Below, piece after piece: positions 41,182-42,612 of a DNA stretch of 64,000 bases; position 1 is the stretch's first letter, and every line of letters begins with the position of its first letter. Below the pieces are notes generated by a model that did not search any database, was not told where the DNA came from, and saw only the letters and a list, made by a program, of their open reading frames with translations. The position numbers and the translations under genes were made by a program. Source of the DNA: Mesonia mobilis DSM 19841 (GTDB lineage Bacteria; Bacteroidota; Bacteroidia; Flavobacteriales; Flavobacteriaceae); assembly GCF_000423405.1 (NCBI RefSeq), contig NZ_AUHX01000001.1, positions 124,001 through 188,000 on the forward strand. Direction: 5' to 3'.

Positions 41182-41889
41182 TTAAAGATATGATAAACTA
41201 TAATTACACAAAAGTGCCACGACAATGGCGAGCCCAAAACTGAGTAACGTACCAATGAGAATGTACTCAGTGAGCTTACGGTCTTTAGATTCGGTGAGGT
41301 CGCTAAACCTGAAAATTGACTTGGCGGCAATTAGAAAACCAACGCCCTCCCAATGCTGCGACGCAATAAAAACAAATACGAGTAAACGTTCTAAGATCCC
41401 GATGTATTTTCCGGCGTTTTCGAGCGATTCGTCTTTTTCGATCTCGGTATTGGGCTTGTAAATAGAAATTAAGGTTTTTATCATAATCGATGCCGGCATG
41501 GTCAAAAAGAAGGCTCCGGTAAGGTAACACAGCAAAATAGGCGAGAGGTTAAAATGAATATTCTCCCGCTCGATTAAAAAATACAATCCGAAAATTATAC
41601 TGAAATGAAATAGCTGATCGAGAAAAAAAAGCAAACGTCGATTTTTTTCATTTTGAAAACTAAGCTTCCAAGCGTCGATGGTCAAATGAGTCACGGCAAT
41701 AGTTAATGGAACGTACCAAAGTTTTAGATTCCATAGGAAAAGAAAATTCAGCAGTAAATGAATCCCGACGTGAAAGTAGAGTTTATTCGAAGCTAATTTT
41801 TTACTTTCTTTTTCTTTTACCCAAGAATAAGGTTGCAACAGAAAATCGCCCACCAAATGCGCTAAAATAAGTTGGAGTAATAGCATCAT
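41182..41889 (-). CDS. DUF3307 membrane protein, partner of SatD
   Basis: The 235-residue integral membrane protein has about six helices. The opening LLLQLILAHLVGDFLLQPYSW, with His and Asp inside the first helix, and VTHLTIDAWK are the conserved marks of DUF3307. The function of the family is not established; polar residues in the membrane suggest transport or catalysis. The start overlaps the satD stop as ATGA, so translation is coupled and the two proteins are probably made in fixed ratio. A second in-frame Met follows directly. Confidence 0.85.
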   Translation of the reverse strand: MMLLLQLILAHLVGDFLLQPYSWVKEKESKKLASNKLYFHVGIHLLLNFLFLWNLKLWYVPLTIAVTHLTIDAWKLSFQNEKNRRLLFFLDQLFHFSIIFGLYFLIERENIHFNLSPILLCYLTGAFFLTMPASIMIKTLISIYKPNTEIEKDESLENAGKYIGILERLLVFVFIASQHWEGVGFLIAAKSIFRFSDLTESKDRKLTEYILIGTLLSFGLAIVVALLCNYSLSYL

Positions 41890-42500
41890 AATATCGACTT
41901 TATTTTCTGTTGAAAAATTTTGTTGAAATCGGTTAACTGACTTAATCCTGCACGTTTTTGGCGTTCACTTACCGTGTTTTGTTTGATGCCGATTAATTCT
42001 CCCAATTGTTGCTGATTCATTCCCGGATTTTCTAAACTCAATTTAACAATTTCAGCTGAATTTGGCGTCCAATGATCCATCGTTAAAAGCGCTAACTGAA
42101 AATATACATTCAGTTCTTCGTCGAGTTTTAAGTTTCCGGTATTGATGAGTAGATTGGTTTTTTCGCGTTTCAATTTTTCAAACACTTCGCCCGATCTAAT
42201 AAAAGCACTTCCGTTAGCTTCAGAAATTGTTGCTGCGTCATAGCTTTTTTCACCCAAACCGATCGCCATTCTGGCATCGAGTTCTTTCATTGTTTTTAAA
42301 GCGGCTTTGATGTACACACATTGCCAAAAAACTTCTAGCGGCGATTTTATTTCTACTTGAAAGCTATCGCCTCTAAAAATTTCCCAATCTTTTTGCTCTT
42401 TACCCAAAACCTGAAGCGTCGCACGCATCTGTTCTAAGTAAGCTTCCGGTAAATTAACCGATTGCGAATTAATAATATCTCCTGTAATTACACTTGTCAT
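41886..42500 (-). CDS. SatD-family protein with C-terminal helix-turn-helix
   Basis: A 204-residue cytoplasmic protein. The start (MTSVITGDIINSQ) and GDSFQVEI match the SatD family. By eye, the first 125 residues follow the order of a class III nucleotidyl-cyclase domain: Asp8 in TGDII, Asp45 in RGDSF, then RMAIGLGE and ANGSAFIRSGEVFEKL, similar to the RIGIHTG and GxxVNxAARL blocks. Residues about 148-186 form a helix-turn-helix (NQQQLGELIGIKQNTVSERQ). Four palindromes lie directly upstream. So it is probably a regulator of its own operon with DUF3307. The cyclase link is inference; no activity is known to me. Confidence 0.82.
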   Translation of the reverse strand: MTSVITGDIINSQSVNLPEAYLEQMRATLQVLGKEQKDWEIFRGDSFQVEIKSPLEVFWQCVYIKAALKTMKELDARMAIGLGEKSYDAATISEANGSAFIRSGEVFEKLKREKTNLLINTGNLKLDEELNVYFQLALLTMDHWTPNSAEIVKLSLENPGMNQQQLGELIGIKQNTVSERQKRAGLSQLTDFNKIFQQKIKSIL

Positions 42501-42508
42501 ATTTCAAA

Positions 42509-42612
42509 TATCGTTTAAAAACACGATAAATACAAATATCGTTTTTAAAGACGATAATATAACTTATCGTTTATAAAGATGATAAATTCAAATATCGTCT
42601 AAGAAAGCGATA
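42509..42612. promoter_or_regulatory. Four-unit palindrome array upstream of satD
   Basis: Four 20-bp units, TATCGT-N8-ACGATA, start at 42509, 42537, 42565 and 42593, an exact 28-bp period. The third has ATGATA and the fourth GCGATA in the right arm, one change each. Spacers are 8 bp. Because the half-sites within a unit are also 14 bp apart, eight half-sites fall every 14 bp in alternating direction. On the minus strand, unit edges give GATATTTG (42512-42505 and 42540-42533), one base off TAnnTTTG, with a TTTG exactly 20 bp before the first. This is a strong candidate operator array for the SatD helix-turn-helix. Confidence 0.85.

Follow-up and report, generated by a model that had tools for sequence, protein, structure and literature searches.

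Regulation from tandem operators is familiar from the repressors of the omega heptads and the MetJ boxes and from BldC and MraZ, and the SatD array described here resembles these systems in placing several evenly spaced short sites upstream of the operon that it would regulate. It differs from them in that the geometry (14 bp and 28–29 bp) is kept across a phylum whilst the base specificity has been replaced many times. The SatD family (PF16264) takes its name from satD of Streptococcus mutans, whose sat operon is laid out differently from the satD–DUF3307 pairing; the neighbour of SatD in Mesonia is DUF3307. Published passages either link SatD to acid tolerance or list it as a DNA-binding protein, and one study reports satD as essential in the Streptococcus pyogenes strains tested, yet present in only 178 of 249 genomes (PMC11323703). 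A gene that is essential though accessory would fit a repressor of something harmful, and may hint at a toxic effector that its partner neutralises. Family-wide correlations between protein and DNA specificity are described for MerR (PMC5045206); the evidence is of the same type as that presented here, namely correlated positions in the helix-turn-helix (HTH) and the site. Unlike the MerR family, SatD apparently serves a single operon, and its code is unusually readable because its arrays mostly give 4–8 half-site readings per species.

Within the open-licence PMC literature no description of a SatD operator, array or DNA-binding test was found, so the opinion of an earlier reading of the sequence alone that this array is undescribed for SatD-family genes held for those papers. 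We consider it highly probable that satD–DUF3307 is autoregulated and has this array as its operator, bound by SatD dimers that would repress their own operon. Beyond what the sequence-only reading had noticed, the analysis points to a half-site that switches, a rigid dimer register, overlap with promoters, a possible cyclase-like domain and plasmid-borne copies.

The palindrome array in Mesonia mobilis and its relatives

The stretch analysed, hereafter the window, comprises 64,000 nucleotides of the Mesonia mobilis DSM 19841 genome (contig NZ_AUHX01000001.1). Four palindromes of the form TATCGT-N8-ACGATA, spaced at exactly 28 bp, lie between satD and cydA, which runs divergently from 42745 (Table 1), and were recovered just as the sequence-only reading had described them. 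On the minus strand, 8 bp separate unit 1 from the ATG of satD. The further contention that such regularity is not chance was borne out: at up to two mismatches the window holds 12 palindromes against 3.09 expected, a count reached by none of 100 shuffles.

Table 1. Positions of the array, the adjacent genes and the candidate promoter elements in the window
Feature	Position	Strand	Description
DUF3307 gene	41182..41889	-	235 aa, all-helical model; Pfam DUF3307 88.8 bits
satD	41886..42500	-	204 aa; predicted N-terminal domain weakly like a cyclase palm, and C-terminal helix-turn-helix
SatD residues 173–183, codons	41952..41984	-	predicted recognition helix KQNTVSERQKR
Candidate -7 box GATATTTG	42505..42512	-	one fixed base off TAnnTTTG; overlaps end of unit 1
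Putative operator unit 1	42509..42528	-	TATCGT-N8-ACGATA, 0 mismatches, nearest satD
Candidate -33 TTG	42533..42535	-	spacer of 20 bp to the -7 box, occupied by unit 1
Putative operator unit 2	42537..42556	-	TATCGT-N8-ACGATA, 0 mismatches
Putative operator unit 3	42565..42584	-	TATCGT-N8-ACGATA, 1 mismatch
Putative operator unit 4	42593..42612	-	TATCGT-N8-ACGATA, 1 mismatch

A scan of the whole genome (3.2 Mb, 59 contigs) with a three-half-site pattern at up to three mismatches returned four forward and four reverse matches, against one and four for a control pattern. Six of the eight places are the satD array itself, one lies in a coding frame of contig C10 that we read as cusA-like and one lies elsewhere with three mismatches; no second array was found at these settings. 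A wider SatD regulon was rejected at up to one mismatch, at which no second intergenic site was found in the genome: all 11 further single palindromes fall inside stop-to-stop frames of more than 100 codons, and the genome's other perfect palindrome, on contig C10, is in a coding frame. The C10 match (C10:72917-72950, equivalent to L003:1487-1520) has three half-sites in register with one mismatch, and its 34 bp recur identically in three other genomes (G002, G009 and G010), probably as shared coding DNA.

All 16 genomes of the genus carry satD. The three-half-site pattern, at up to two mismatches, occurs in 15 of them and at the satD locus in 14 of those; a few further matches lie away from satD, and the genus was found to have one array per genome, scattered matches aside. 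G004, which is not among the 14, is the telling exception: its SatD helix reads RSQSNISEAFKR in place of IKQNTVSERQKR, and upstream of its satD stand TATCTG/CAGATA half-sites at unchanged spacing. In G013 SatD is 99% identical to that of the window. In G015 (locus L020) satD is interrupted by a stop and a frame change, and its array is degenerate; we set this disruption aside as uninformative because the arrays of the similar loci in G009 and G011 are likewise degenerate.

In samples that overlap one another, SatD was found in 143 of 249 genomes of the Flavobacteriaceae, 47 of 395 of the class and 78 of 395 of the phylum (Pfam profile). The 310 loci yielded 268 distinct satD genes with 300 bp of upstream sequence, after removal of 16 without a profile match (L003 and 15 of the 30 loci L161–L190), one without a start codon (L022) and 25 duplicates. 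Within the last 160 bp upstream of these genes, direct 6-mer repeats number 2229 at lag 28 and 339 at lag 29, where dinucleotide shuffles give 14.1 and 15.5, and inverted 6-mers at 14 bp number 508 against 13.6. A de novo search, which assumed no sequence but did assume the 14/28–29 geometry, placed 219 of the 268 loci above the 99th percentile of shuffles, with TATnnn in one orientation as the consensus half-site in 213 of the 219. When TAT is taken as given, 220 of 268 loci score at least 22 of 24, against 0 of 268 when each region is given a single mononucleotide shuffle. Amongst lags of 10–60, the best is 28 or 29 in 226 of the 268 upstream regions, whereas the opening 180 bp of satD itself give such a lag at 4 loci of 268. 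By either of two criteria an array is present at 250 loci; by both it is absent from 18 of the 268, some of which give double-lag signals only.

Loci outside the TAT class keep repeats of 28 or 29 bp built on different half-sites. At lag 28, 7-mers recur 35 times across 15 loci of the phylum search and 114 times across a further 33 loci with low scores, with fewer than one recurrence expected per lag. The sequence-only reading had proposed looking for the same half-site and period upstream of satD in related genomes. The 14/28-bp geometry is indeed shared, but TATCGT does not persist beyond near relatives, and a search for TATCGT alone would wrongly 'refute' conservation because the half-site changes while the geometry stays. 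A second type of SatD, seen at L186, L190 and L349, comes with GTTTCA-like half-sites of 29-bp period; the genomes concerned have a TATnnn-type copy as well.

Chains of half-sites, in which steps of 13–15 bp were allowed, show how the array is built. Inner steps, within TATnnn...nnnATA, are 14 bp in 597 of 598 cases, whereas steps between units are 14 (378), 15 (68) or 13 bp (2); a near-invariant inner step beside a variable outer one suggests that the 20-bp palindrome is probably a rigid dimer unit. The middle four spacer bases are A or T in 96–98% of cases, the commonest outer spacer is TATTTGTT (38/378), and 195 of 220 arrays give 4–8 half-site readings per species.

Co-variation of half-site bases with the predicted recognition helix

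Within TATnnn the last three bases switch between loci (CGT, TCC, CAC, TAG, AAG, CTG, CGG and others), and the protein changes with them. Amongst all 204 columns of SatD, ranked by MI with nnn over 235 loci scoring at least 21, residues 179, 175 and 176 take the top three places. A helix spans residues 174–183 in the SatD model, and three columns picked at random would land together in the 11 residues 173–183 about once in 8,400 draws (165/1,394,204). Individual pairings are close: E179 occurs with C at base 4 in 50 of 51 cases and with G or T at base 5 in 51 of 51, Q179 with A5 in 55 of 59 and K179 with C5 in 47 of 56, whilst at base 6 D175 goes with C (36/36), N175 with C or T (70/71) and S175 with G (62/79). 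The pairings Q179/A5, D175/C6 and E179/C4 fit common preferences between side chains and bases. Taken as triples (residues 175, 176 and 179), NTE goes with CGT in 23 of 24 loci, with members down to 33% identical, DAK with TCC or GCC (34/36), NAK with TCC (8/8), SNE with CTG (10/12), SSE with CGG (7/7), SAQ with TAG or AAG (26/26) and NAT with CAC (8/10).

Shared ancestry was addressed in several ways on the 220 loci scoring at least 22, the sample also used for prediction. Firstly, amongst pairs of proteins 50–60% identical, residue 179 differs in 14% of same-site pairs and in 89% of different-site pairs, whilst differences over the remainder of the protein are nearly matched (0.447 and 0.457); the corresponding figures for residue 179 are 0.23 and 0.79 at 60–70% identity and 0.18 and 0.59 at 70–95%, with the proviso that identity-matched pairs are not independent of each other. 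In disjoint nearest pairs the triple has changed in 23 of 39 with different sites and 15 of 65 with the same site, at mean identities of 0.65 and 0.76 respectively. Secondly, none of 400 simulations on a tree built without columns 165–204, with 175 variable columns ranked, reaches the MI of residue 179 at base 4, 5 or 6; residue 176 likewise outdoes every simulation for base 5, as does residue 175 for base 6. The same is true, for at least one base, of several columns that lie outside the helix (167, 125, 159, 168, 109, 88 and 11), and column 167 ranks first by z for base 6. Thirdly, proteins less than 40% identical that share a triple share nnn in 31 of 50 cases, against 5 of 50 controls. Independent-pairs tests on supported branches had too few pairs for significance in all six cases; five leaned in the expected direction, and that for Q179 and base 5, again on few pairs, was evenly split (1.8 for, 1.7 against). 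Since some close pairs switch nnn with the triple unchanged, the three residues are not the whole code.

Taken together, the co-variation argues strongly that SatD reads the array, and supports the candidate named in the sequence-only reading for the protein that would assemble along it. That the array is a SatD operator is thus very likely. Copies collected later fit the triples by our reading: L347 and L348 (S,N,E; identical to each other) carry TATCTG and L350 (S,S,E) carries TATCGG, as the triple table says, and L346 (S,S,E) has CGG as its column consensus, although just 2 of its 6 half-sites read TATCGG without mismatch. The nnn of L345 (S,T,E) is CGT, which is among the two known earlier for that triple; the S,S,D of L343 and L344 lies outside the earlier triple table as printed.

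Parsimony places 65 changes of nnn on the tree, and in 10 of the 220 arrays symmetric units of two kinds occur together, possibly as intermediates in specificity switching. TATTCC-type and TATCAC-type units are mixed at L049, L115, L035 and L040. At L049 (Lacinutrix) and L115, TCC units stand beside CAC or CAT units and the helix, NQNAISK, seems to fall between that of the TCC type (QDA.SK) and that of the CAC type (QNA.ST). The 220 natural protein/site pairs thus combine fixed geometry with switching specificity and make the joint change of a transcription factor and its sites, apparent intermediates included, open to testing; SatD variants could also supply orthogonal repressors for the Bacteroidota.

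Operon context, promoter overlap and mode of regulation

The DUF3307 gene overlaps satD by 4 bp in the window, and a DUF3307-like frame follows satD at every one of the 146 loci whose downstream sequence runs to 700 bp or more. On the other side the neighbours vary: the largest upstream cluster accounts for 53 of 145 loci, and the clusters include genes that we read as rmuC-like, thioesterase-like, cydA and DUF423-like. The array goes with satD and not with the varying neighbour beyond it. That it serves another regulator, or the divergent cydA, is suggested by its place between satD and cydA in the window, but the cydA cluster comprises only 8 loci, satD and DUF3307 stay where the upstream neighbour differs, and the sites co-vary with the SatD helix. 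The link to cydA was rejected on this ground, and the explanation as a whole is very improbable.

The position of the units relative to promoter elements bears on what bound SatD would do. TAnnTTTG, given as the flavobacterial -7 consensus in PMC9723704, occurs 217 times upstream of satD where mononucleotide shuffles give 55; 107 of the occurrences share one register, starting two bases before the end of a unit. A TTG stands 20 bp further upstream in 41 of these 107 in-register boxes, a spacing that is partly a consequence of the 28-bp period. As that period equals 8+20, neighbouring units can make up promoters that overlap one another, each with an operator in its spacer. The promoter candidate in the window would start transcription near the ATG.

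It could instead be argued that the palindromes act as RNA hairpins in the leader, or as a terminator or attenuator, given that a 120-nt strand folds better than shuffles of it (z -3.44, matched by 1 of 200 shuffles). Folding, however, is built into any palindromic DNA, there is no Rfam match, and co-variation with the HTH of the adjacent protein would be unexpected of a hairpin; moreover, because the units overlap promoter boxes, much of the array is probably untranscribed. This explanation merits very little credence. A more serious alternative, though still an unlikely one, is that SatD binds the array but activates or fine-tunes the operon, for example through recruitment of RNA polymerase by the units further upstream. 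The HTH of SatD resembles sigma-70 region 4, the arrays reach upstream of the promoter-proximal unit, and exact in-register boxes occur at only 79 of 220 loci, that of the window being one base off. Against activation, where boxes are found the units coincide with the core promoter elements or occupy the gap separating them, with the TTG spacer of 20 in 41 of 107, an arrangement expected to occlude polymerase.

Promoter overlap is the evidence from which we infer repression rather than activation, and autorepression of the satD–DUF3307 operon is likely. As in an autoregulator, regular sites are conserved with the gene of the regulator and change with its recognition residues. Under autorepression, as the co-variation suggests, one SatD dimer would bind each 20-bp TATnnn-N8-n'n'n'ATA palindrome through its C-terminal HTH, in which TAT is constant and residues 175, 176 and 179 would do most of the reading of nnn, and several dimers would pack at 28 (sometimes 29) bp. 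With units often between the -33 TTG and the -7 TAnnTTTG, bound SatD should exclude RNA polymerase and so repress the operon. A nucleotide, probably bound by the N-terminal domain, would release the repressor or load it, with DUF3307 as the membrane effector; nucleotide sensing by SatD and an effector role for DUF3307 are plausible. With apparently a single operon to serve, SatD would be free to change in step with its sites, so that DNA specificity could drift on a fixed geometry. Such a scheme would give the little-studied SatD family a regulatory function and tie the orphan DUF3307 to it.

Protein domains and plasmid-borne copies

Recognition of the window protein as SatD is borderline by Pfam (29.3 bits against a cut-off of 29); the profile scores 28.4 bits in a whole-genome frame search, 29 with its neighbours, and matches 64 of 80 aligned relatives at E≤0.1. 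The likeness of the HTH to sigma-70 region 4 (Sigma70_r4, 21.4 bits, cut-off 24.1) and to HipB is below curated cut-offs in both cases. The SatD model has a mean pLDDT of 97.7, and its best Foldseek matches in the PDB come from GGDEF and class III cyclase domains, mCpol ranking 40th; none reaches E≤0.001 (best 1.5e-3, TM 0.44). A profile of whole SatD matches Ma1120 weakly (E 0.006), whilst that of the N-terminal domain alone finds DosC (E 0.009), then a thiamine enzyme (E 0.12), Ma1120 being absent. D8 and D45 are invariant in 38 N-terminal domains and may be equivalents of the two metal-binding cyclase aspartates. The likeness of SatD to the GGDEF and class III cyclase palm and to Panoptes mCpol is weak, and SatD differs from them in the predicted fusion of its weakly cyclase-like domain to an HTH.

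The DUF3307 model is confident and all-helical (pLDDT 92.9), with no PDB match to its fold (best E 0.99). Six residues are invariant His or Asp (H11, D15, H40, H44, H68 and D72), hinting at a metal site. The protein matches the PHROG membrane-protein family phrog_2470 (E 1.1e-13), filed under moron/host takeover. DUF3307 is present in 148 of 249 Flavobacteriaceae genomes and, by comparison of the genome lists by hand, together with SatD in 139; SatD occurs without DUF3307 in four (G071, G102, G120 and G164) and DUF3307 without SatD in nine. At 8 of the 10 DUF3307 loci in these nine apparently SatD-less genomes a divergent SatD lies upstream, and the other two (L327 and L331) are short forms of DUF3307 without one; 29-bp arrays are plain at two of the divergent loci (L329 and L330), not at all of them.

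Nine genomes carry two copies of SatD. By our reading, half-sites are clearly different in six pairs (G780, G806, G814, G689, G773 and G877), of which G689 and G773 are near-identical and count as one; they are related in G334, and for one or both copies in G869 and G830 they are not readable. Genomes with two copies thus mostly appear to carry differently addressed arrays. Neither SatD nor DUF3307 matched a known defence family in PADLOC, and SatD had no match in the phage collection.

satD and DUF3307 form a compact gene pair on mobile elements, a trait of toxin–antitoxin and defence modules. Homologues of SatD (22–29% identity) occur in 14 plasmid records, 13 from Proteobacteria and one from Segatella, of which 6 are predicted to be mobilizable and 8 are not. 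Amongst nine plasmids inspected, DUF3307 is annotated beside SatD in all seven annotated records, the two Pseudoalteromonas records being unannotated at the locus. Repeats of 28 or 29 bp were found in three of seven plasmid upstream regions tested (L337, L338 and L339) and were absent from three; L335 gives a weak lag-28 signal amid stronger other lags.

A broader reading, which we offer tentatively, sees in satD–DUF3307 a two-gene module, widespread and in part mobile, whose cyclase-like repressor senses a nucleotide and silences a membrane effector through a phased array, and whose three-base address has been rewritten dozens of times on an unchanged scaffold because copies can meet in one cell. 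If true, it would provide a nearly complete natural DNA-recognition code, with orthogonal regulators for co-resident copies.

Plasmid-borne SatD–DUF3307 pairs were seen at L334, L335, L336, L339, L340 and L342. The Sphingomonas plasmid copy (L334) lies near a gene of a Pycsar-effector family, L335 and L339 near transposases, L336 near a mobilisation gene and L340 near an Xre-family antitoxin and a recombinase; the smallest plasmid with SatD is 3.77 kb long and has five annotated features.
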